DNA of 64,000 nucleotides from contig JAFGYB010000020.1 in the NCBI GenBank assembly GCA_016936355.1, positions 62,001 to 126,000 of the forward strand. The letters are read 5' to 3'. The position numbers and the translations under genes are program-made. The notes below the pieces were generated by a model, which ran no database searches, was not told the DNA's origin, and was given only the letters and a program-made list of their open reading frames with translations. Below, piece after piece: positions 28,401 through 42,505 of the stretch; position 1 is the first letter of the stretch, and each line of letters begins with the position of its first letter. This DNA comes from Bacteroidales bacterium. GTDB lineage: Bacteria > Bacteroidota > Bacteroidia > Bacteroidales > F082.

Positions 28401-28892
28401 TTACAAGGTACCTGATGATGTCCGTTTATTAAGTTGAGTAAAGTATTCCTCCAGTGCATTAAAGCGATAGTCAAAAATTTCTTTCAATTTTTTTCGGATC
28501 AACAGCCTGTTGGTTATTCTTCCCAGAATTCCGAAAGGCGGAGCATAAGTAACAATATCAGTCATCAGCACTCCCCCGTCCCTCGCTTCAATTTTATGTT
28601 GATGATGCCAGAGTTTGTAAGGGCCTATGCGTTGTTCGTCAACAAAATATTTCAACGGCTTCACGTGGGTGATCTCTGTCATCCATTTGGTAGGAATATG
28701 CAAAACCGGTCTTACAATGTAGGTAATGATCATTCCCGGATACATTTTTCCTTCCGCCGATTTACCGGTTATATCAAAACCCATGGAAGGTGGTGTAATC
28801 TTTTTTAAATTTTCAGGTGCAGAAATAAAATCCCACACACGTTCCAAATCAGCCTGAATGAATTGCTCTTGCCTTATTTGATAAAAAGCCAT
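28401..28892 (-). CDS. SRPBCC (START-like) family protein
   Basis: This 163-residue cytoplasmic protein has the SRPBCC ligand-binding fold: an N-terminal strand and helix (FIQADLERVWDFISAPENLKK), a central beta sheet (HHQHKIEARDGGVLMTDIVTY), and a long C-terminal helix (IFDYRFNALEEYF). Proteins of this kind are often encoded next to photolyases in light- or stress-responsive groups, as here, where it is divergent from the photolyase gene. Its own promoter at 28910-28917 is next to the two operator-like repeats, so it may be co-regulated. The ligand and function are unknown. Confidence 0.82.
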   Translation of the reverse strand: MAFYQIRQEQFIQADLERVWDFISAPENLKKITPPSMGFDITGKSAEGKMYPGMIITYIVRPVLHIPTKWMTEITHVKPLKYFVDEQRIGPYKLWHHQHKIEARDGGVLMTDIVTYAPPFGILGRITNRLLIRKKLKEIFDYRFNALEEYFTQLNKRTSSGTL

Positions 28893-28909: not shown

Positions 28910-28917
28910 CAAAGGTA
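28910..28917 (-). promoter_or_regulatory. -7 element of SRPBCC gene promoter
   Basis: The minus strand reads TACCTTTG, 17 bp before the ATG. Its -33 region falls inside the inverted repeat at 28926-28945. Confidence 0.55.
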
Positions 28918-28925
28918 TGAATTAT

Positions 28926-28945
28926 TTATTACATTATCGTATTAT
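28926..28945. promoter_or_regulatory. Upstream operator-like repeat (site 2) between SRPBCC and photolyase genes
   Basis: TTATTAC-N6-GTATTAT, five of seven left-arm bases matching the better site 31 bp away (centre to centre). It also covers the -33 region of the divergent SRPBCC gene. Confidence 0.55.
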
Positions 28946-28956
28946 TAAATAACTTT

Positions 28957-28976
28957 ATAATACATATTCGTATTAT
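28957..28976. promoter_or_regulatory. Operator-like inverted repeat overlapping photolyase promoter (site 1)
   Basis: ATAATAC-N6-GTATTAT is a perfect 7-bp inverted repeat (8 bp including the flanking T/A). Its right arm overlaps the first three bases of the -7 element TATATTTG, so a bound protein would block RNA polymerase. The same repeat with the same offset occurs at the carotenoid promoter (38052-38071). Confidence 0.7.
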
Positions 28977-28981
28977 ATTTG
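28974..28981 (+). promoter_or_regulatory. -7 element of photolyase promoter
   Basis: TATATTTG, part of a 13-base stretch GTATTATATTTGC (28970-28982) that is identical in the carotenoid operon promoter. It is 51 bp upstream of the photolyase ATG. Confidence 0.65.
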
Positions 28982-29032
28982 CAGGTCAAAAGTTATCTTC
29001 TAAAACATCCTTATCTTTCGGAAGAAAAAAAT

Positions 29033-30328
29033 ATGAACCGCTCACATCAAAAAATAGTCGTCTTCTGGTTTCGGCGCGATCTGCGACTGGACGACAACGT
29101 GGGGTTAAACAAAGCGCTGGGCCACGGACTCCCTGTATTGCCGCTGTTTCTGTTTGACGATCAAATTATTAGTGAACTTCCCGAAGACGACGCCCGAATT
29201 ACATTCCTTTACGATCGTTTGAAAAATATGAATCAACAATTAAAGATGCATGATTCATCACTGTTGTGTTTGAAAGGAAAACCGGAAGAACTATGGACAA
29301 AGCTTTTACAGGAACGAAACATTGCTGCCGTTTACTGCAACGAAGATTATGAACCGTATGCCAGGGAACGGGATGATAAGGTGAAGAAGATACTGGAACA
29401 ACAGGGCGCCACCTTTCATCAGTTCAAAGATCAGGTTGTCTTTGCTAAGGAAGAAGTATTGAAAGACGACGGCAAACCTTATACGGTATATACACCCTAT
29501 ATGAAAAAATGGAGAACCGCGTTTCAGAATCATCCACCAATAGCTACAGCATTACCCAAAACACCAATTTTTTTATCGGTTGATTATCAACTTCCCTCAC
29601 TGGAATCAATAGGTTTCAAAAGGTCACCAATCCATGCAGAAGCGTACCGTTTGAATAAGCTGGAAAATTACCGCGAAAGGCGCGACTTCCCGGCACTGGA
29701 TCAAACCAGTAAACTGAGCGTCCACCTTCGGTTTGGCACAGTCAGCATCCGGAAGGTAGTGCAGCAGGTTCAAAACAACGAATCTTTTCTGAATGAACTG
29801 ATCTGGCGTGAGTTTTTTATGCAGATTCTGTATCATTTCCCTAAAGTGGTTGCGCATAATTTTCATGCCAAATACGACGGTATTCAGTGGCGCAATAAGA
29901 ATGATGAATTCGAACGATGGAAGAAGGGAATGACCGGTTATCCGCTGGTGGATGCGGGCATGCGTGAGCTCAATGCCACAGGCAATATGCACAACCGGGT
30001 CAGAATGGTTACCGCGGGTTTTCTGGTGAAGCACCTGCTCATCGACTGGCGCTGGGGTGAAGCCTATTTTGCGCTGAAGCTTCTGGACTATGATTTGGCT
30101 GCCAACAACGGGAACTGGCAGTGGTCAGCGGGTACCGGTTGTGATGCCGCTCCGTATTTCCGGGTGTTTAATCCCCTTTCGCAACTGGACAAGTTTGACA
30201 AAGACAGGGCGTACGTAAAAAAGTGGATTCCCGAGCTGGATACAGCGGCGTATCCCAAGCCCATGGTGGATCATAAAACGGCACGTTTAAGAGCCATAAA
30301 AACTTACAATGAAGCGCTTGGGAAGTGA
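29033..30328 (+). CDS. phrB: Deoxyribodipyrimidine photolyase/cryptochrome family protein
   Basis: This 431-residue flavoprotein most likely repairs UV-induced cyclobutane pyrimidine dimers using blue light. The N-terminal antenna domain begins VVFWFRRDLRLDDNVGLNKA, the class I photolyase pattern, and the FAD-binding C-terminal half has LNELIWREFFMQIL (about 270), GMTGYPLVDAGMRELNATG, MHNRVRMVTAGFL and NNGNWQWSAGTGCDA (about 375). Tryptophans of the electron-transfer chain appear present. The upstream in-frame start at 28979 overlaps the promoter and is rejected. A cryptochrome role cannot be fully excluded. Confidence 0.93.
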   Translation: MNRSHQKIVVFWFRRDLRLDDNVGLNKALGHGLPVLPLFLFDDQIISELPEDDARITFLYDRLKNMNQQLKMHDSSLLCLKGKPEELWTKLLQERNIAAVYCNEDYEPYARERDDKVKKILEQQGATFHQFKDQVVFAKEEVLKDDGKPYTVYTPYMKKWRTAFQNHPPIATALPKTPIFLSVDYQLPSLESIGFKRSPIHAEAYRLNKLENYRERRDFPALDQTSKLSVHLRFGTVSIRKVVQQVQNNESFLNELIWREFFMQILYHFPKVVAHNFHAKYDGIQWRNKNDEFERWKKGMTGYPLVDAGMRELNATGNMHNRVRMVTAGFLVKHLLIDWRWGEAYFALKLLDYDLAANNGNWQWSAGTGCDAAPYFRVFNPLSQLDKFDKDRAYVKKWIPELDTAAYPKPMVDHKTARLRAIKTYNEALGK

Positions 30329-30418
30329 GTTTTTTTTATAATCAACGACTGGTTTCGGTTTTATAACCGAGCATCTTTCGTATCCTGGACAACTAACTCC
30401 ATCAATCACCGGATCTTA

Positions 30419-31405
30419 TCAATAATTCCTTTCGTATATTTTCTTTGCAAAAAGACTGATCAAGGCTACTCTTTCCGGATCCAGCGAAAGGGCTTCCAAA
30501 GAATCTATGGCTTTTGTATAATAATGTCGCATCATCCTGTAGGTGTCTTTCTGAATATTAAATTCGCTCAACATCTTTTTCATCTCCCACATCTTTTTTT
30601 CTTCGTCCCTTTCCTGAAAGATCTGATTCAATTTCCTTTTGGCTGCAGCATCAGCCTTTTCTGTTAACCGACAAATGAGAAATGTTTTCTTGTTCTGAAC
30701 AATATCTCCACCAATGCGTTTTCCAAAGGTTTTTTGATCACCAAAAACATCCAGATAATCGTCTTTTATTTGGAATGCAATCCCCAGATTTTCTCCAAAT
30801 GCATAAATACTTTTCTGATCTGATGCGTCAGCATCTCCAAGCAAAGCCCCCATTTGAAGGGCACCGGCCAGAAAAACAGAGGTCTTTAAACGAATCATGT
30901 GGATGTATTCCTGAACACTGATTTCCTCTTTCTTTTCAAACTCTACATCCAGCATTTCCCCTTCAATAACACGGGAGGAGATTTCGAGGAAAATGTTCAG
31001 TAAATCATAATGTTTCTTGCGGGGGACTTTATTCAACACTTTCATGGCGTGTAACGACATTACATCGCCGGTTAAAATGGCTTTTTTGATCCCGAAAGAT
31101 TTATGCACCGTAGCTTCATTTCTGCGTAAGTCGGCCTCGTCAATTATATCGTCGTGTACGAGGGTAAAATTGTGATAAACCTCTATGGCTGCTGCTGCAT
31201 CCAGTGCGTTGGATAACGTTCCGCCGAATGCTTCGCAGGCGGCAAGCAACAATACGGGCCGGATACGTTTGGCTTTCATTTTCATGATGTGTAACGTAGG
31301 CTCGTACAGCGGCTGAGGAAGATCCTCAAAACCCTTTGCAAACAGGTGCTGCTCAAAAAGTTCCTTCAGTTCGCTGTAGGAATGGAGTTTGGTAGTTGTA
31401 ATCAT
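30419..31405 (-). CDS. crtE: Polyprenyl diphosphate synthase (GGPP synthase type)
   Basis: This 328-residue prenyltransferase should condense isopentenyl diphosphate to make geranylgeranyl diphosphate for carotenoids. The first aspartate-rich motif is DDIID (85-89) and the second is DDYLD (about 214-218), with KRIRPVLLL near residue 46 and GKRIGGDIVQNKKTFL after the second motif. It is the last gene of the carotenoid operon and overlaps crtI in an ATGA junction. Product chain length is inferred from context; the operon position supports C20. Confidence 0.9.
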   Translation of the reverse strand: MITTTKLHSYSELKELFEQHLFAKGFEDLPQPLYEPTLHIMKMKAKRIRPVLLLAACEAFGGTLSNALDAAAAIEVYHNFTLVHDDIIDEADLRRNEATVHKSFGIKKAILTGDVMSLHAMKVLNKVPRKKHYDLLNIFLEISSRVIEGEMLDVEFEKKEEISVQEYIHMIRLKTSVFLAGALQMGALLGDADASDQKSIYAFGENLGIAFQIKDDYLDVFGDQKTFGKRIGGDIVQNKKTFLICRLTEKADAAAKRKLNQIFQERDEEKKMWEMKKMLSEFNIQKDTYRMMRHYYTKAIDSLEALSLDPERVALISLFAKKIYERNY

Positions 31406-32892
31406 GCTTTTGTAGTTTTGTAATTCAGAACTCTTTCTGTTGTAAGCTTTGAGCTGATGATGGCCATGGGTAGACCGGCCCCCGGTATGGTGGATGCCCC
31501 CACATAAAACACATTTTCATACTTTTCATCAAAATTCGAGGGTCTGAAGGCTCCAATCTGGCCCATGGTATGCGACAAGCCCAGCCCCGAACCTTTGTAT
31601 AAATTGAAGGTATTTTGCCATGTTTCCGGTGTAAAAATGGTTTTGGACACAATCATCCGGGCAATATCTTTCCCTGTTCTTTCAGAGAAATCTTCAACGA
31701 TACTGTCCACAATCTTATCACGGTCATCCCAATGATCTTTGTAAAGCAAATTGGGAACCGGGCAAACAAAGAACAACGCTTCATGGCCTTCGGGAGCACA
31801 TTCCGTATTGTGTTTTGAAACCACATTTACATAATAATAGGGCTTTTCGAGTGTCCCCGGATTTTTCATCACATCTTTTGCGTATTCCTCAAAATTGCTG
31901 CCCAGATAGTAATTGTGGTGCTCTACCTCTGGCAACTTTTCATTGATTCCCAGGTAAAAGGTCAGGTAGCCCATTGTCCAGCTTTTTTTCTTTAGCTTGT
32001 TCTCTGAAAATGCTTTTCTCCTGAACACCTTTCCCCTGAAAAATGCCGCATCTGAATTAATCACAAATAGATCGGCAGTCCATTGTGTTCCGTTTTGATC
32101 AATCAAACAAGTAAGCTTCCCGTTTTCTTCCTTAAAATCTGTAACCTCTGTTTCATAAGCAATCTGAACCCCTGCTTTGTTGAGTTCTTTCACCAGTCCT
32201 TCAACAATCCGATACATCCCTCCTTTTACATTGTAATAACCGTCGTGTTTGAACTCGGTATAAGAAAGAAGTGAATAGACCGAATTGGTATCAAAAGGGG
32301 TTCTGCCCAAAAAGAAAGCCACCAAAGATAAAATCTGGCGTGCTTCTTTGGAAGAAAAATAGTGCGTTACATGGTTCCAAAAAGTCTTCAGCAACACGGG
32401 AAGGTGAACAGGATTTACCCTCATCAGCGCCAAAATGTAACCCGGTATTGAATCAAAGTTTTGTTTGATCACTATGTCAACGGTATCGTGAAATAAGGCC
32501 CCTGATTTCTTCAGATACTTTTCAAACTTTTCTTTGAAATCCGGTTCCTGGTCTTCAAACTGCCGGGCCAGTTTGTCACTATCTCTGTAGAGAAAATATT
32601 TCTTCGGGTTTCCCCTGAAATGTACGGTATAAAGCGGGTCGAGTTCCACATATTCAAAAGGCAACTTTATGCCGCAGTCTTTGGCGAATTCTTCAAACTC
32701 GTAGGACATGCTGAAAAAACTCGGACCGGTATCAAAGGTAAAACCGTCTTTTTTGATCTGATTTAACCGGCCACCGGCCCGTTCATTTTTTTCGATCATC
32801 TGCACCTGATACCCTTTGGTGGCCAACCGCAAAGCGGTAGACAATCCACCCAAACCGGCACCTACAATCAAAACCTTTTTATTGTTCATCAT
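31402..32892 (-). CDS. crtI: Phytoene desaturase family protein
   Basis: This 496-residue flavoprotein belongs to the CrtI family. It has the N-terminal dinucleotide-binding motif VLIVGAGLGGLSTALRLA (about 5-22), EKNERAGGRLNQ, and the C-terminal FVCPVPNL and FYVGASTIPGAGLPM (FAD-binding, about 465-480). It is the only desaturase in the cluster, so stepwise desaturation of phytoene to lycopene is the simplest role; a CrtD-like 3,4-desaturation is the alternative. The start has two Met in a row. It overlaps the preceding TPR-like gene by up to 14 bases. Confidence 0.9.
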   Translation of the reverse strand: MMNNKKVLIVGAGLGGLSTALRLATKGYQVQMIEKNERAGGRLNQIKKDGFTFDTGPSFFSMSYEFEEFAKDCGIKLPFEYVELDPLYTVHFRGNPKKYFLYRDSDKLARQFEDQEPDFKEKFEKYLKKSGALFHDTVDIVIKQNFDSIPGYILALMRVNPVHLPVLLKTFWNHVTHYFSSKEARQILSLVAFFLGRTPFDTNSVYSLLSYTEFKHDGYYNVKGGMYRIVEGLVKELNKAGVQIAYETEVTDFKEENGKLTCLIDQNGTQWTADLFVINSDAAFFRGKVFRRKAFSENKLKKKSWTMGYLTFYLGINEKLPEVEHHNYYLGSNFEEYAKDVMKNPGTLEKPYYYVNVVSKHNTECAPEGHEALFFVCPVPNLLYKDHWDDRDKIVDSIVEDFSERTGKDIARMIVSKTIFTPETWQNTFNLYKGSGLGLSHTMGQIGAFRPSNFDEKYENVFYVGASTIPGAGLPMAIISSKLTTERVLNYKTTKA

Positions 32893-33640
32893 TCATTCTG
32901 TTTTTTAGAAATTCAGGATATATCTTGTTTTTCACCCAATCAAAGTCAGGTGCTATGGTTAAAATCAGCTTGTAAGCACTATTGGCTTTTTCATATTGCG
33001 CTGTTTCTTCATAGGCCTGGGCTATGGATGTCAGCAAACTCAGATAATTCCAGTTTTCATTGATATATTTCTCCCTGTTCCGATGCATCATTTTCTCGGC
33101 CTTCAAATAATAGTACAATGCTTCAGTTTTGGAACCGCCAAAAATGACCGGCCTATAATACAGTGCGTTGGCGTACTGAATGTATCCGAAAGGATTTGTT
33201 GAATCCTGTTTCATCGAAAGTCTGGAATAATTCACGCTTTTGGGGCCGTAAAAGGGAGCTTTTATGGGACTTAATCCGATTTTATAGCCATATACTGCCG
33301 ACAGGTAGGCACTCACAAAAGATAGCTGAAAGTTGTTCTTTTTGAGTCGTTTCAAATTTTTTTCCAATAAATCAAGGTAACGGTAAGCCTCGTCAGTATT
33401 TTGGGTACCGATACACCAGGCTACATAACCATATTCATAGTTTGCCAGCTCCAGGAGTACTGAGTCGGGTTTACCGGGCCTTGCTTCCAGCAGATCTATT
33501 ACCCCCTTCCAGTTGCCCATATTAGTGCCCAGATAGGACTGATAAACGATTTTTCTGTATGCATCAACCTGAGCTGATAAAGTACTGACAAACAGAAATA
33601 AACCTGCGCCAATCATAAGGATATGTTTCTTGATTTCCAT
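32879..33640 (-). CDS. Exported TPR-like protein of the carotenoid operon
   Basis: I do not recognise a named family. The 253-residue protein has a signal peptide (about 1-23, ending in STLSAQ) and a helical, tyrosine-rich body with repeat-like segments (LLELANYEYGYVAW, GYIQYANALYY, LTSIAQAYEETAQYEKANSAYKLI), typical of tetratricopeptide-like folds. It should sit in the periplasm or on the outer membrane inner face. It overlaps genes on both sides within the carotenoid operon, so it is made with the pathway enzymes; a role in carotenoid or lipid handling is inference only. Confidence 0.7.
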   Translation of the reverse strand: MEIKKHILMIGAGLFLFVSTLSAQVDAYRKIVYQSYLGTNMGNWKGVIDLLEARPGKPDSVLLELANYEYGYVAWCIGTQNTDEAYRYLDLLEKNLKRLKKNNFQLSFVSAYLSAVYGYKIGLSPIKAPFYGPKSVNYSRLSMKQDSTNPFGYIQYANALYYRPVIFGGSKTEALYYYLKAEKMMHRNREKYINENWNYLSLLTSIAQAYEETAQYEKANSAYKLILTIAPDFDWVKNKIYPEFLKNRMNDEQ

Positions 33641-34704
33641 TGGTATTGATTAGTTGTTCTGTTTAGTATTGCCTGTAAAATCATCTGTCCCATTGTGACT
33701 TGTTCGGGGATCAGGGTTAATATTGATGTGATGATCTTTCGATTGCTTTTGATTGCAATCAGAATCCGGATAAGAAGTAAGGAAATGAAATAGATAATGA
33801 TCATCAGCCGGTTCCCCGCCCAAACAACAGGTAGAAAACCGAAGGTGGTCACCATCCAAAACAGGATGGCTAACAATGCTGAGTTGCCAAAGAACATAAT
33901 TATATTCTTGGAAAAACCATAAACGGCCTCATGATATCCTGAATACATACGGCAACTTACCTCTTCAATACCTGTTGTACAGGATACAGGAACCAGTTTT
34001 CTTTTCAGATAACGGGCGATCTGAATATCTTCAACTTTACTGTTTTTAAACGTTTTATGCGGTTCATACTGACGATAGACAGAAGCTTCAAACAGCATAA
34101 ACTGACCGTTGGCAGCTGTAAGTGAGGGCCGGTTGGATTGACGAACCAATACCAGAGGCAAAAGCGACAGCAAAATATAATTCATCACCGGGACAGTCAC
34201 TTTCTCGCCCACCGTTTTCATAATTTGAACAGGAAATATACTCAACAAGCCGGATTGCTCTTTTTTCAGAAAATGCACGGCCTTTGATACGGCGGATCTT
34301 TGTAGCCGGACATCTGCATCAACAAAGAGGTAAAAGGTTCCCTGAGCAAGTTCAGCAGCACTGTGGCAGGCATAATTCTTTCCCAGCCAGTTCGGGGGTA
34401 ATCCACCGGAATGCATGAGCCGCAGGTTGTCCGATTTCTTACTCATTTCCTTTACAACCTCAACCGTACGATCTTCTGATTCATCATCAAAAACAAGAAT
34501 TTCCAGATTAGTATAGTCTTGCTTTGATAAATCTTCCAGAATCCAATGAATGTTTTTTTCTTCGTTGCGTACCGGGATAATGACGGAAACAAGATCTTCG
34601 CCCGTATCTTTCGCTTTTAACTTGTGTAGAAAAATCAGGTTGCTCAAGGCAACAAGAAGTTGAATAAGAGCAAATAGGAATAGTATGTAGGCAACAACGA
34701 TCAT
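33613..34704 (-). CDS. Membrane GT2-family glycosyltransferase (CruC/CrtQ-like)
   Basis: This 363-residue protein has an N-terminal membrane helix (about 3-25), a GT2 catalytic domain with VSVIIPVRNEEKNI, the nucleotide-sugar DxD-type FVDADVRL, LPPNWLGKNYACHSAAE, and EDIQIARYLKR, and two or three C-terminal membrane helices. This layout resembles carotenoid glycosyltransferases (CruC/CruG and CrtQ). The frame extends to 34737, but the ATG at 34704 overlaps the preceding stop codon by one base (TAATG), so that start is chosen. In this operon it probably glycosylates the hydroxylated end of the carotenoid. Confidence 0.82.
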   Translation of the reverse strand: MIVVAYILFLFALIQLLVALSNLIFLHKLKAKDTGEDLVSVIIPVRNEEKNIHWILEDLSKQDYTNLEILVFDDESEDRTVEVVKEMSKKSDNLRLMHSGGLPPNWLGKNYACHSAAELAQGTFYLFVDADVRLQRSAVSKAVHFLKKEQSGLLSIFPVQIMKTVGEKVTVPVMNYILLSLLPLVLVRQSNRPSLTAANGQFMLFEASVYRQYEPHKTFKNSKVEDIQIARYLKRKLVPVSCTTGIEEVSCRMYSGYHEAVYGFSKNIIMFFGNSALLAILFWMVTTFGFLPVVWAGNRLMIIIYFISLLLIRILIAIKSNRKIITSILTLIPEQVTMGQMILQAILNRTTNQYQWKSRNISL

Positions 34705-35327
34705 TATTCGACTTTGGATTTTTGGCGTTGAATACATCCGTTATAGAAATTCTGATACATCTTTTGCATGGTTTCAATTCCCATGGAGAAATTTTCCATT
34801 TCCTTGGCATATATACTCAGCGATGGCTTAGCATTTGAAAAATAATCCACCATATTGGCTACCATAATTACTTTAAGTTTTCCATGATTTTCAGCTACAA
34901 TACGTTCCATTCCCTTTTCAAAAGTGAAGTGTTGGTTGTGCATGGAATTAATTTTTCCCTGTGGAAAAACGATGACCATATTGTCTTTACTTTTCAACAA
35001 CGCTGCAGCATAGTCCAACGATTCCAAAATGGATCTGGAGTTCTTCGACACGGAAAACCCTCCGGCATAATTAAAATACCAGTGTTTACGGAGTTGCTCT
35101 TTCAACATCATAAAATGAAACTTTTTGTGCAACACTTTAAGGTTCAAAAGCATGAGCCAGAAGCCATCCCACCAGCTAATGTGATTGGCAATCAGCAAAA
35201 CCGGATAATCTTCCACGTCCACATGGCTATAAATTTGAACCTTTTCAAAGTGCCGTTTCACAATGTATTGGGCATAGCTTTGAAAAAAAGGATCTATAAT
35301 AAAGTGATGTTTTGCTTTTATAATCAT
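34704..35327 (-). CDS. PlsC-like acyltransferase (CruD/CrtO-like)
   Basis: This 207-residue protein has the acyltransferase motifs of the PlsC family: NHxxxxD as ANHISWWDGFW (about 49-58) and a second block with FPQGKINS (about 125-132). It lacks a long membrane region, so it is probably membrane-associated. Between a GT2 glycosyltransferase and a cruF-like gene in a carotenoid operon, the likely role is acylation of the sugar of a carotenoid glucoside, as done by CruD in green sulfur bacteria and CrtO in Staphylococcus. Both ends are coupled to neighbours by ATGA and TAATG overlaps. Confidence 0.82.
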   Translation of the reverse strand: MIIKAKHHFIIDPFFQSYAQYIVKRHFEKVQIYSHVDVEDYPVLLIANHISWWDGFWLMLLNLKVLHKKFHFMMLKEQLRKHWYFNYAGGFSVSKNSRSILESLDYAAALLKSKDNMVIVFPQGKINSMHNQHFTFEKGMERIVAENHGKLKVIMVANMVDYFSNAKPSLSIYAKEMENFSMGIETMQKMYQNFYNGCIQRQKSKVE

Positions 35328-35962
35328 GGCTTCAACAGTGCTAGGAGGACAAAAAAGATAAGCTGGCTGAAATAAACCACAGCAGATAACGGATTCCGGG
35401 TCCCGATCTTCAGGATTTTAAACAAGAATATAAATACAAAGGACAAAACAAACCAGGCCAGATAATTTTGAACAGGAACTTTATTCCCCATCCACGACCA
35501 CATGTTGAGGGCAGGCGCGGCTACTTCCAGAAATAAATCAAAGAATACTAATAGAAAAGCGCCCAGTACACTTTGAATCAAAATATTCAACCTCGTACCA
35601 TTAAACAAATCAGCAACCGAGTAACTCAGTACCAGCCAATTGACACCAATAATTAACGGAACATCGAAGAGTTTAAAGCCTAAACTATTCCCGTAAGAAT
35701 ACGAGCCAAAAACCGCTCCAGTGTGCACTCCAAGAACTTCAATACCAAAGCCCGCCAAAAAGACGAAAACAAATACGAGAGAATCTTTTAAACCAACCTT
35801 CGTTTTTTTATAAACGAAAAGCATCGCTGCATTAAAGAGTAAGGCGAAAGGAATTAACAGAACAAAATAGGGACGGGTAGCGTCCATCAAAATTCCTGCT
35901 ATTCCAACCAGATAGAAGAAAACAACAATCAAACGACCCGCCATTACAGCCCCTTTGTTCAT
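35324..35962 (-). CDS. CruF-like carotenoid 1',2'-hydratase (DUF422 type)
   Basis: This 212-residue membrane protein has six or seven hydrophobic segments and the CruF/DUF422 signature: GFGIEVLGVHTGAVFGSYSYG (given in parts as GIEVLGVHTG, about 70-79, and FGSYSYG), VPLIIGVNWL (about 100-109), and a DLFLEVAAPALNMWSW segment (about 140-155). CruF adds water across the 1,2 double bond of the open psi end of gamma-carotene to make a tertiary hydroxyl, a substrate for glycosylation. It overlaps neighbours on both sides by four bases. The exact substrate here is inferred. Confidence 0.83.
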   Translation of the reverse strand: MNKGAVMAGRLIVVFFYLVGIAGILMDATRPYFVLLIPFALLFNAAMLFVYKKTKVGLKDSLVFVFVFLAGFGIEVLGVHTGAVFGSYSYGNSLGFKLFDVPLIIGVNWLVLSYSVADLFNGTRLNILIQSVLGAFLLVFFDLFLEVAAPALNMWSWMGNKVPVQNYLAWFVLSFVFIFLFKILKIGTRNPLSAVVYFSQLIFFVLLALLKP

Positions 35963-36657
35963 ACTTTTTTAGTTTTGAGTTCGGCAATTTTTCTGAAGCT
36001 TTCGATAAAAATCAAGTTGATTAAAATCAGGCTGAAGCCGTAGAAAAAGTCTTCTACCGGTATGGTTAATATTCTAAAGCCAAGAATCTCGTTGCTGTTG
36101 TACCATACCACTTCACCCTTAATGAAACTACCTGTTAATAATCCGTTTACAATGAAAAACGGAATCAAAATAAGAAGAAAGGAAACAAAGAATTTTGCCA
36201 GCGTTTCCCTGACAAAAACATAGGCCAATAAAAGAGAAGTCAGTGTGAGAATGCCAGCATACAAAGTATACTCTCTGTGGTGGAAAAAAACAAGTGCAAC
36301 CATAGCGGCCAGTGACAACAGCATAGTGTAAGTCAACACCGATTGGCGGGGATAACGCTCGGGGAAATAATGAAAGAACGAATAATGGATAAACAGACTG
36401 GCATAGGGAATCACAATAAAAAACAGGATCTCTTCAAGCGGCAAATTAAAAATATTGATTCCCAGCAGATAATGAGGATTGAAGCCCCAGATACCATATT
36501 GTGCAAAAAAAATGTCAGGAATAAGAAACACAACAGCCGTCAGAAAGATGGAAGGAAGTACAAATTTCCATTGTTTGTAAAACTGAAGCTTTGCATCAAA
36601 GCTGAGCGCCAGAGGAACCAGTCCGGAGACAAAAAGTAAAACGGCATACAATTTCAT
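35959..36657 (-). CDS. crtYcd: Lycopene cyclase, CrtYc-CrtYd fused type
   Basis: This 232-residue membrane protein contains two lycopene-cyclase-domain repeats with the catalytic-type motifs NLPLEEILFF (first half, about 73-82) and TIPVEDFFYGF (second half, about 203-213). This is the fused version of the heterodimeric actinobacterial CrtYc/CrtYd and of archaeal and fungal cyclases, and is unrelated to plant-type CrtY. The frame extends to 36711, but the ATG at 36657 (MKLYAVLLF) comes four bases after the crtZ stop and is preferred. It should form one or two beta rings; with CruF in the operon, one ring is likely. Confidence 0.86.
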   Translation of the reverse strand: MKLYAVLLFVSGLVPLALSFDAKLQFYKQWKFVLPSIFLTAVVFLIPDIFFAQYGIWGFNPHYLLGINIFNLPLEEILFFIVIPYASLFIHYSFFHYFPERYPRQSVLTYTMLLSLAAMVALVFFHHREYTLYAGILTLTSLLLAYVFVRETLAKFFVSFLLILIPFFIVNGLLTGSFIKGEVVWYNSNEILGFRILTIPVEDFFYGFSLILINLIFIESFRKIAELKTKKV

Positions 36658-36661
36658 GGCA

Positions 36662-37153
36662 TCAGCTTTTAAAATGTTTGAATGGAAAAATGAGCAATCC
36701 GTAACTGTCAAAATCTTTCTTGTTTTTCGGATGATGATGGGCTCGGTGTGCTCTGATCACGGCTCCCATATAATTACTGTGATTTTTTTGTAAAAAAGAG
36801 ATCGTTAACCTTTGGTGGTAAATGATTTCATGAACAATAAAATACGTCATTCCGTAAAGCGTAATACCGATTGCCACTGACACCAGAATAAACTCCTGAA
36901 CGGCAAATCCGGTAATCATTAAAATCATTGCAGGAACTGCATAAATCAGAAAAAACAAATCATTTTTTTCCCAGACAAAGCCTTCTTCATGACGGACCTG
37001 TGCCGGCTTCATATCGTTAATATGATGGTCTTTATGCCACTTCCAGAGAAACCCGTGCATGATATACTTATGACTGAACCAGGCTACAAATTCCATAAAA
37101 AGGTAGGCTGATAAAAGAGCGGTCCCGTTGTATAAAAAGACAGTCATATCCAT
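36662..37153 (-). CDS. crtZ: Beta-carotene hydroxylase
   Basis: This 163-residue membrane di-iron enzyme adds the C-3 hydroxyl to beta rings. It has four histidine clusters typical of CrtZ: HKYIMHG (about 28-34), HKDHH (about 40-44), HEIIYHQR (about 108-115), and HRAHHHPKN (about 135-143). Three or four hydrophobic helices separate them. It follows crtB by two bases. Hydroxylation of the ring formed by the cyclase encoded next is the expected role. Confidence 0.93.
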   Translation of the reverse strand: MDMTVFLYNGTALLSAYLFMEFVAWFSHKYIMHGFLWKWHKDHHINDMKPAQVRHEEGFVWEKNDLFFLIYAVPAMILMITGFAVQEFILVSVAIGITLYGMTYFIVHEIIYHQRLTISFLQKNHSNYMGAVIRAHRAHHHPKNKKDFDSYGLLIFPFKHFKS

Positions 37154-37155
37154 TA

Positions 37156-38004
37156 TTACTGAAGCAGGTTGAGTTTGTTTTCCACATAGGCCAGCCCCAG
37201 GAGCAGCGATTTATAGCCATTGCTGATGCGGATGCGATCGCGAAGAATGAGTTGGGCATCGGTACGTTCAATTTTTCTTAACAATCCTGAGTAATACTTA
37301 TATGCAACATAGACTGCCAGCCGGGCATTTTGGGGTAGTTTCCGAATCCCTTTTAAGGCTTCCTGAAAATCCAGACGAATTTCTTCCGTTATTTTTTGTT
37401 TGGCTTTGTTATCAAAAGTATGGGAGTTGACCCCCGGAAAATAGCTTCGGTCCAGAATTTGCAAATCATTTTTCAGATCTCTTAAAAAATTCACCTTTTG
37501 AAAGGCTGAACCCAGCTTTTGTGCCGGTTGTTTGAGTTCATTGTACAATGCCTCGTTTCCGTTGGAAAAAACTTTTAGGCACATGAGCCCTACCACATCG
37601 GCTGAACCATATATATAGGCATCCATTTCTTTTTTTGAACCGTACTGCTTTTTCCTGAGGTCCTGTTTCATACTGTTCAAAAATTCTTCGATCAGATCGT
37701 ACGGGATTTGGTATTTATTGACCGCTATTTGGAACGATTGCAACAACGGGTTTAAACTGATTCCCTGATGCTGTGCATTCAGATAGTCGGTTTCAAATTT
37801 TTTCAACAGACTTTCCTGATCGTCAATATCAAACGTATCAACAATTTCATCCGCAAACCTCACAAAGCCATAGATGGCAAAAATACCCTGCCGGGTCTCC
37901 TTGTCAAAAAGCCTTGATGCCTTGTAAAAGGAGGTGCTGTAGTTTTTGGTGACCAGTTCCGAAACCTCAAATGCCGTATGGTCAAATAAACTGAGGGATG
38001 TCAT
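37156..38004 (-). CDS. crtB: Phytoene synthase
   Basis: Phytoene synthase condenses two geranylgeranyl diphosphates head to head. The 282-residue protein has both aspartate-rich motifs: DEIVD (about 52-56) and DLKND (about 173-177), with YGSADVVGLMC between them. It is the first gene of the nine-gene carotenoid operon, 43 bp downstream of the shared-type promoter. Early steps start here while crtE is last, so the operon is complete from GGPP to product. Confidence 0.94.
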   Translation of the reverse strand: MTSLSLFDHTAFEVSELVTKNYSTSFYKASRLFDKETRQGIFAIYGFVRFADEIVDTFDIDDQESLLKKFETDYLNAQHQGISLNPLLQSFQIAVNKYQIPYDLIEEFLNSMKQDLRKKQYGSKKEMDAYIYGSADVVGLMCLKVFSNGNEALYNELKQPAQKLGSAFQKVNFLRDLKNDLQILDRSYFPGVNSHTFDNKAKQKITEEIRLDFQEALKGIRKLPQNARLAVYVAYKYYSGLLRKIERTDAQLILRDRIRISNGYKSLLLGLAYVENKLNLLQ

Positions 38005-38046
38005 ACCTGTGTGAATTAATTAAACTGCGTAAAAGTATTAACGCGG

Positions 38047-38054
38047 CAAATATA
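38047..38054 (-). promoter_or_regulatory. -7 element of carotenoid operon promoter
   Basis: The minus strand reads TATATTTG inside GTATTATATTTGC (38058-38046), the same 13 bases as in the photolyase promoter. It lies 43 bp before crtB. Confidence 0.68.
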
Positions 38055-38071
38055 ATACATTTTTGTAATAT
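38052..38071. promoter_or_regulatory. Operator-like inverted repeat overlapping carotenoid promoter
   Basis: ATAATAC-N6-GTAATAT, one adjacent base swap from the perfect photolyase site, extended by flanking T/A. It overlaps the -7 element by the same three bases as in the photolyase promoter. Confidence 0.68.
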
Positions 38072-38087
38072 AATTTACATTTAACTC

Positions 38088-38100
38088 AAATTCGTATTAT
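38088..38100. promoter_or_regulatory. Operator half-site upstream of carotenoid promoter
   Basis: ATTCGTATTAT repeats the arm and spacer edge of the photolyase sites, centred 29 bp from the main operator. The opposite arm matches at only four of seven positions, so this is a half-site. Confidence 0.45.
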
Positions 38101-38209: not shown

Positions 38210-38866
38210 TCAACCTAAATATTTACTGTAGAGCTCGGTAAGCTCGGTATTTTTATCCTTTTCAAAAATGGTCTGGTGGAAATCACCCAGTTTGGTCATC
38301 ATTTCGATCCCGCTTTTCAGTTCCTCAGGATTCAGGTTGCCGGTGATCAGCAGCGATACTTCGTACATACGGTTAAAGGCACTAAAAAGTTCTTTTTTCC
38401 CTTCACCGGTCAATACTACAATTTTGGATCTTTTGTCACTGGCATCATCGGTCTCCGTTATCAGCCCTTTTTTCACGAGTCGTTTTATGATCTCAACACC
38501 AGTGGTAATTTCCATCAGGTGTTTGTTGATCAGCTCTGTTTTAGTCAGCGGGCCTTCCTTCAGCAACGTAGCCAAAAAACCAAACTCATCAATGGATTTG
38601 AAGTGGGAGTCTTTAAAAACCTGCTTCAGATAGCGATTGGCGAAGCGGTAAAGGCGGGTCAGAATGGCCGAGAACTCAACCTGGGGTATGGCTTTATAAT
38701 CGAGATATTCACTCTCCTTGAGTCCGTCTCGGGTGCTGGCATCAATCTCAAACAGTTTGTCCTTAAGGTAAATGGAAAACAATTTGACATCTACATTTTG
38801 ATTATCCTGGACATAGTTGTCAATATGGGGAAGCAACTGATCCAGCAGGTTAAGTTCACGCGACAT
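38210..38866 (-). CDS. MarR-family transcriptional regulator
   Basis: This 218-residue protein has a winged-helix MarR domain (about 85-190). It includes a recognition region FLATLLKEGPLTKTELINKHLMEI (quoted here as two parts, LLKEGPLTKTELI and NKHLMEI), the wing DDASDKRSKIVVLTGEGKK, and helical dimerisation segments at both ends. A longer frame starts at 38980, but the -7 element at 38871-38878 lies inside it, so the ATG at 38866 is preferred. It is encoded just upstream of the carotenoid operon and is the best candidate to bind the inverted repeats at the carotenoid and photolyase promoters. Confidence 0.85.
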   Translation of the reverse strand: MSRELNLLDQLLPHIDNYVQDNQNVDVKLFSIYLKDKLFEIDASTRDGLKESEYLDYKAIPQVEFSAILTRLYRFANRYLKQVFKDSHFKSIDEFGFLATLLKEGPLTKTELINKHLMEITTGVEIIKRLVKKGLITETDDASDKRSKIVVLTGEGKKELFSAFNRMYEVSLLITGNLNPEELKSGIEMMTKLGDFHQTIFEKDKNTELTELYSKYLG

Positions 38867-41746: not shown

Positions 41747-41862
41747 CGGCTCATAACGGAGCAGGTTTTCTTTGTGTAATCCCGGTATCTGACTTCGGAT
41801 TCTGCGCAGAAAGTATTCTTTCATCAGAATTAAGCTAAGGGCATGAAATTCAATTTTTTTCA

Positions 41863-41870
41863 TAAATTTG
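41863..41870 (+). promoter_or_regulatory. -7 element of Crp-family gene promoter
   Basis: TAAATTTG lies 26 bp before the ATG at 41897 and inside the longer frame from 41843, so the downstream ATG is preferred. Confidence 0.5.
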
Positions 41871-41896
41871 TTTCCCTCATAAAATGGGGACATCTC

Positions 41897-42505
41897 ATGG
41901 AAGAGGACTATAAGAAACAAATCAGGGGCTTCATCAATTTCATCGTTCCCATCTCTGAAAAGGATTGGTCAGAATTTTCCTGGAGACTTCATTATAAAGA
42001 ATATGCTAAAAACGATATCCTGCTCCGTGCCGGAGAAACAGAGAATTTCATGTATTTTATGGTTTCCGGGATCAGCAGGATCTTCCAGATGAAGAACGGC
42101 ATAGAATACACACTCCGCTTCAATTTTCCTGTTTCAGTTTTCAATTCCTATGCCTCATTCATCAGTCGCAAACCTTCACTGATCAATGTTCAGGCTGTTA
42201 CCGATCTGAGGGCATTCAGGATGTCGTATGCTGATATGGAAAGCTTATATGATGCTGCCCCCAGCGCCGACAGAATCGGAAGAAAAATGCTGGAACTGCT
42301 GTACCTGCAACGGGAACTGAAAGAGCTGGAAATGAATTCCAAAACCGCTGAAGATTATTATTGCGAACTGATCAAAGTCAACAAAAACCTCACGGAAGAG
42401 ATTCCTCAAAAATATCTGGCATCTTATCTGGGGATCACACCCGAAAGTTTGAGCCGGATCAAAAGAAAAATATCAGATCGTTTGAATATCCCGGAAAATA
42501 AGTAA
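41897..42505 (+). CDS. Crp/Fnr-family transcriptional regulator
   Basis: This 202-residue protein has a cyclic-nucleotide-type sensory domain (about 20-120, with NDILLRAGETENFMYFMVSG) and a C-terminal helix-turn-helix (about 160-195, with IPQKYLASYLGITPESLSRIKRK). No cysteines in the Fnr arrangement are seen, so an iron-sulfur sensor is unlikely. The sensory domain lacks a clear arginine-serine phosphate cassette, so the ligand is unknown. It is a single gene with its own promoter. Confidence 0.87.
   Translation: MEEDYKKQIRGFINFIVPISEKDWSEFSWRLHYKEYAKNDILLRAGETENFMYFMVSGISRIFQMKNGIEYTLRFNFPVSVFNSYASFISRKPSLINVQAVTDLRAFRMSYADMESLYDAAPSADRIGRKMLELLYLQRELKELEMNSKTAEDYYCELIKVNKNLTEEIPQKYLASYLGITPESLSRIKRKISDRLNIPENK

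Follow-up and report, generated by a model that had tools for sequence, protein, structure and literature searches.

A common operator at photolyase and carotenoid promoters of a Bacteroidales bacterium and a candidate MarR-family repressor

Are DNA photorepair and carotenoid synthesis controlled together in the Bacteroidales bacterium considered here and, if so, by which protein? The question is raised by a 64,000-nucleotide stretch of its genome (GenBank assembly GCA_016936355.1, contig JAFGYB010000020.1, positions 62,001–126,000; called the window below), in which a cryptochrome/photolyase family gene, phr, and a run of carotenoid (crt) genes headed by crtB lie near the gene of a MarR-family regulator. 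A sequence-only reading of the window had proposed that one repressor acts on both units through a shared inverted repeat, had named the MarR protein as the best candidate and had set it apart from the B12-dependent MerR-type regulators LitR and CarH. Sequence comparison makes a MarR repressor common to photorepair and carotenoids a well supported reading. It is quite probable that a clade of MarR repressors reads the repeat and that the two functions are co-repressed by the window MarR, by its paralog in the same genome (marR2) or by both.

Operators at the phr and crtB promoters

The arms of ATAATAC-N6-GTATTAT are perfect at positions 28957–28976, on the plus strand in front of phr, as read directly from the sequence, and a copy with one mismatch, also found by the weight matrix described below, occupies 38052–38071 on the minus strand in front of crtB. 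Promoters of the Bacteroidota have the −7 consensus TAnnTTTG, and the main operator overlaps by three bases the −7 element TATATTTG of both genes, at 28974–28981 (plus strand) for phr and at 38047–38054 (minus strand) for crtB. A 13-mer, GTATTATATTTGC, is identical in the two promoters, on opposite strands, and is found nowhere else in the window. Each main operator has a companion further upstream that lacks the 13-mer: one lies 31 bp from the phr site at 28926–28945 (plus strand, two mismatches, also a matrix match) and a weaker one 29 bp from the crtB site at 38081–38100 (minus strand, three mismatches, seen in the sequence). The sequence-only reading had described the two main repeats, their three-base overlaps, the common 13-mer and weaker sites at these spacings, and its coordinates were all reproduced. 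The 28926–28945 site also lies immediately upstream of a −7-like element, TACCTTTG (28910–28917, minus strand), of a divergent SRPBCC gene and may serve that promoter, which would give one site per promoter in the shared intergenic region.

The genome assembly measures 3.10 Mb in 74 contigs and is 94% complete. A Markov model of the window predicts 0.83 copies of the repeat with at most one mismatch, and the assembly has three: those of phr and crtB and a third upstream of an Rrf2-family gene (C19:3184). The discriminating pattern is the operator joined to the −7 element, TAC-N6-GTAWTA-NN-TTTG, which in its exact form occurs at two places in the genome, phr and crtB, with 0.2 expected. Allowing one mismatch gives 16 places, ten within open frames and the intergenic ones including both sides of the divergent promoter between marR2 and a TonB-receptor gene on contig C53. 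Counts of the repeat itself at lower stringency are less telling. At up to three mismatches the window has an unimpressive six matches (mean 2.5 in shuffled windows, 4 of 100 of which reach at least six), and the genome-wide search at up to two mismatches suggested by the sequence-only reading gives 30 places, where the Markov model predicts 19 and the reversed pattern yields 13, a mild enrichment that is unconvincing alone.

The crtB site has been kept in a related genome, Bacteroidales bacterium ZodW_Metabat.54 (JAFGXS010000080.1, locus L051), which has a MarR protein 88% identical to that of the window and a syntenic crt operon. At its crtB promoter the repeat, with one mismatch, and the 13-mer hold the same position, and the TTACGAATTTGAGTT block of the weaker upstream site is kept; much of the intergenic DNA outside these sites is diverged. 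In this locus the geranylgeranyl diphosphate (GGPP)-synthase gene is followed by the acyl-CoA dehydrogenase gene, the window being different there in having the phr/SRPBCC pair, and a search of the genome at E 1e-20 gave no photolyase match.

The product of phr (29033–30328, plus strand) has 431 residues and the Pfam domains DNA_photolyase and FAD_binding_7; NCBIfam photolyase models match it below their cut-offs. The divergent SRPBCC/polyketide-cyclase-like gene (28401–28892, minus strand, 163 residues) is assigned from a weak Pfam match below the cut-off. Domain searches identify in the carotenoid run (30419–38004, minus strand) crtB, a crtZ-like gene and genes for a lycopene cyclase, a CruF-like protein, an acyltransferase, a GT2 glycosyltransferase, a TPR-like protein and members of the CrtI and GGPP-synthase families. 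The window also encodes one of two similar proteins of about 220 residues (MARSDASI...) that lie at distant places of the genome (45366–46031 and L002:1728–2387).

Two other palindromes were judged unrelated. That at C19:3184 is probably the Rrf2 regulator's own site; the near-match repeat (L002:1501–1520) lies upstream of the Rrf2-family gene (L002:1041–1454), which cupin-like and hemerythrin-like genes adjoin (by eye). The icmF palindrome, ATATTACGCAAGCGTAATAT (L008:1501–1520, C10:154067), is flanked by what looks by eye like an iron-sulfur protein gene and by a B12-binding-domain gene with a frame of 1135 residues.

The MarR clade, its promoters and its gene neighbours

The window MarR gene (38210–38866, minus strand, 218 residues) stands in tandem with crtB. 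Its product matches PF01047 with 30.6 bits (cut-off 24.6) and HTH_27 with 31.4 bits (cut-off 22.2), and the best PDB matches of a profile of its clade are MarR proteins. A winged helix at residues 94–147 follows a long N-terminal part. The protein contains no cysteine, which speaks for a bound ligand rather than a thiol switch. MarR dimers, folded with a wing, bind palindromes of 16–20 bp; the palindrome here spans 20 bp, and a structure model (AlphaFold, two sequences) had a mean predicted local distance difference test score of 44, too poor to judge the dimer.

Among 295 genomes of the order, 29 have matches to this MarR, one of them being the own genome. The second copy in the own genome, marR2 (C53:31007–31660), has 45% identity to the first, and both paralogs are also present in the L051 genome. 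Their putative recognition helices, EITTGVEIIKRL in the window MarR and EISSGSEILKRL in marR2, are nearly alike, so that cross-binding is likely.

Many marR promoters of the order have a TAC-N6-GTA palindrome against the −7 element (for example TTATTACAAATTTGTATTAATTTTGC), and divergent regions of the marR2 type have TTTGCAAA common to two −7 elements, each with its own operator-like flank (by eye). Six marR promoters from other genera (L054, L055, L057–L060), none of them from the own genome or L051, served to train a weight matrix. Its ranking in the window is 38052, 38413 (inside marR), 28957, 28926, 1611 and 38081, placing the four operators 1st, 3rd, 4th and 6th; among 200 Markov-shuffled windows the best score was reached by two, the second by five and the third by none. 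At a threshold of 10 long stretches produce many matches by chance (468 kb would be expected to give 17.4), and the matrix was therefore applied to promoters only. Of eight untrained marR promoters (own marR2 and seven others) five score at least 10 (L052, L056, L061, L062 and L065), a score that 1.6% of random windows drawn from these loci attain, a lenient null since such windows are not all promoters; the L056 site overlaps the start of a divergent gene. A matrix learned from other genera thus supports a reader of MarR type, as the sequence-only reading had proposed. That reading's choice of the window copy is less secure, the best score being 11.8 at the marR2 promoter and 0.0 at that of the window marR.

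The operator also occurs away from marR genes. A stricter search with the exact pattern found nine sites in seven of 15 genomes, against one site for the reversed control: phr and crtB of the window, three marR promoters, three promoters of a lipoprotein operon and one intragenic site (G163). This conserved lipoprotein operon has a TonB-receptor gene downstream at the loci seen and in two genomes (G171 and G264) is on a different contig from marR, which indicates that the operator tracks a regulon and not just a locus. The 13-mer is found at seven distinct promoters, all belonging to this regulon (phr, crtB, crtB of L051, idi of G264 and those of lipoprotein genes in G128, G010 and G264), among loci that were enriched for it by how they were retrieved. 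The lipoproteins under the operator (L091:1550–2284, L096:731–1474 and L094:1542–2288) have about 245 residues and a D-x-x-(S/T)-G-A-T-P motif; the two members tested, from L091 and L096, gave no Pfam match even at E 10.

Out of 395 genomes from the phylum, 32 match the clade profile, the own genome among them. Neighbours were counted at 29 of the 38 matches outside the own genome, with the best-scoring generic MarR domains, one per genome from nearly the same genomes, as controls. A crtI, crtB, phr or idi gene lies within 1.5 kb at 14 of the 29 clade loci and at none of 30 generic loci, the flanks of which were slightly shorter in this count. Over about 8 kb on each side, and with a wider gene set (phr, five crt queries, idi, TIGR01777 oxidoreductase, lipocalin, BLUF and folE), the numbers are 16 of 29 and one of 30, with L213 counted by folE alone, photolyase matches in L223 and L228 that are just 28% identical and several stretches that end early at contig ends. 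The sole control match (L233) comes from a stretch in which a clade member (G390:C1:1225236) is also present. The order at L217, in a distant genome, is MarR, crtI, crtB, SRPBCC, crtZ, lycopene cyclase and photolyase, and at L211 photolyase and MarR are divergent to crtI; photolyase and SRPBCC genes, which have separate promoters in the window, thus join MarR-headed crt rows elsewhere. SRPBCC-like genes stand among crt genes at four of the 29 loci.

In the tree the window MarR belongs to a supported order-level clade (95/92, 15 rows). A separate clade from genomes of the same class (99/98, 13 rows) has crt, phr or idi links in 11 of its 13 rows. Within 1.5 kb of the 28 order-level MarR loci a TIGR01777 oxidoreductase gene is found five times and a TonB-receptor gene nine times. 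At L060 (9938–10904) genes for an idi-like NUDIX protein and a BLUF blue-light sensor follow a divergent marR promoter; the BLUF protein is a candidate photoreceptor for the regulon in that genome. GTP cyclohydrolase I and short-chain dehydrogenase genes lie directly before MarR and crtB in another locus (L134:124–1484), and the Pseudomonas LitR literature, in the passages used here, has such gene types in light regions as well.

Proposed regulation and rival explanations

The simplest reading is that a MarR dimer would act as a steric repressor at the −7 element. Bound to TAC-N6-GTA, the dimer would cover the first bases of the −7 element and could block RNA polymerase at phr, at crtB and, via the second site, at the divergent SRPBCC promoter; release of the repressor would let photorepair and carotenoid synthesis rise together. 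The acting repressor would be the window MarR, marR2 or both, and marR2 probably also controls itself and the divergent TonB-receptor gene. The signal is probably linked to light, directly or via an isoprenoid or oxidized-lipid ligand; light is suggested by the content of the regulon and by a light-induced Chryseobacterium cluster of similar crt order, as presented in passages of PMC7064467. Of the original one-repressor claim, the shared repressor-type site at phr and crtB is borne out by comparison, and the repression itself we infer. The contrast drawn with B12-type MerR regulators also stands: no CarH/LitR candidate was found in the 94% complete assembly, where B12-binding matches fall in frames of 1263, 711 and 1135 residues and MerR matches in frames of 137 and 109 residues, and the window MarR has neither a MerR helix nor a B12-binding domain.

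Several results weigh against this reading or narrow it. The window marR promoter has no operator, so that this copy lacks the autoregulation often seen in MarR proteins, and three of the eight untrained marR promoters (L053, L063 and L064) are without a site. Looser forms of the motif barely exceed the genomic background, if at all, and with two mismatches TAC-N6-GTAWTA-NN-TTTG is at background (224 places, 215 for the reversed control). Of the 16 photolyase genes in other MarR-carrying genomes whose start could be used, which leaves aside the partial matches L085 and L086, none has a site with up to three mismatches within 300 nucleotides upstream; the phr link is thus not general at promoter level and is seen instead as gene neighbourhood. 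Only three of the 28 order-level MarR loci have a crt, phr, idi or BLUF gene within 1.5 kb (crtI once, photolyase once, idi with BLUF once). By eye, the second clade's crt-linked members seem to go with a distinct palindrome, TAGTATA...TATACTA, and operator identity is therefore claimed for the order-level clade only. A B12-binding frame of CarH size (290–430 residues) is present in four of 26 MarR-carrying genomes (G066, G163, G099 and, below the cut-off, G546), so that the MarR clade is not strictly exclusive of CarH-like proteins.

The scores of the two marR promoters raise the possibility, which we regard as rather doubtful, that marR2 is the acting regulator and the window MarR a diverged copy with another role or signal. 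The promoter region between marR2 and the divergent TonB gene has operator-like sites in a back-to-back arrangement, as has that of the G295 ortholog; the training motif of the matrix came from relatives grouping with or near marR2, and the window MarR and its L051 ortholog are on a long branch. However, the nearly alike putative recognition helices argue against such a division of roles, as does the joint retention in L051 of a window-type MarR and the crtB operator, and clade members adjoin crt genes in other genomes.

It is unlikely that an unrelated regulator reads the sites, be it the Crp-like protein encoded at 41843–42505, the Rrf2 regulator or a special sigma factor recognizing the 13-mer. 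The Crp-like gene is 3.8 kb away, a Crp/Fnr-type protein, LdrP, controls light genes in Thermus according to a reference title in PMC7064467, and one near-match lies upstream of the Rrf2 gene. Yet the operator tracks marR promoters across other genera, and a relative of the Crp-like gene is found at one of 30 MarR loci (L127). The distal half of the operator and the second sites, moreover, are placed away from the −7 element, the latter without the 13-mer. That an AT-rich −7 region is palindromic by accident is highly improbable: the loose counts near background would fit such an origin, but the exact pattern is confined to two places in the genome, both here, a second genome has kept the crtB site, and the independent matrix finds the same sites.

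Relation to known systems and significance

Repression of carotenoid genes by a MarR protein has a precedent in CrtR (PMC6739363, PMC5401885). CrtR of Corynebacterium glutamicum and other actinobacteria (PMC6739363, PMC5401885, PMC7432914) is the nearest known system. In the passages of these papers that were drawn on, it is a MarR-family protein that adjoins crt genes, represses carotenoid synthesis and has a site overlapping promoter elements; it is light-inducible, with no LitR, LOV or BLUF protein found there, and genes for phr, epi, idi and lipocalin can be part of the clusters of related bacteria (PMC5401885). By the same passages, the CrtR gene is divergent to crt, whereas marR is in tandem with crtB, and CrtR needs a TTAA core, whereas the operator here is TAC-N6-GTA; TTAA is absent from three of the four sites, including both main operators, and lies at the edge, not the centre, of 38081–38100. 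The shared operator over phr is a further contrast with C. glutamicum as covered there. GGPP releases CrtR from DNA. No CrtR model appeared in the NCBIfam scan, and the string 'Bacteroid' is absent from the main text of all three papers.

With CarH/LitR the likeness is one of function, light-dependent carotenoid control (passages of PMC6739363); the protein family differs and the window MarR lacks the B12 domain. Class II LitR controls phrB, ufaM, folE and cryB in Pseudomonas (PMC9758184, in the part consulted), a combination of photolyase and pterin genes that is a functional analogue. Among the Bacteroidota, the consulted part of PMC7064467 describes a light-induced crt cluster in Chryseobacterium lacus, reports no car or lit operon genes and calls the regulator unknown; the term MarR is absent from its main text. 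The order given there (lipocalin, lycopene cyclase, crtZ, hypothetical gene, crtB, crtI) resembles the MarR-headed loci L210 and L217, which have SRPBCC where C. lacus has the hypothetical gene. In the myxol cluster of Nonlabens spongiae a MarR-family gene is annotated among the crt genes, by annotation only (PMC11855829, in the part seen). Literature searches, confined to open-licence PMC papers, turned up neither this operator nor a Bacteroidota MarR tested for a role in carotenoid control.

We tentatively propose, at somewhat less than even confidence, that a MarR clade found across the Bacteroidota is the missing B12-independent light switch for carotenoid, photolyase, SRPBCC/lipocalin and isoprenoid genes in genomes without CarH/LitR, acting here at separate promoters that each have an operator on or beside the −7 element. 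For light-induced pigment without CarA/LitR genes, as reported in a Chryseobacterium, this puts forward a candidate clade together with a precise operator and a small regulon, and the question of the regulator becomes testable.

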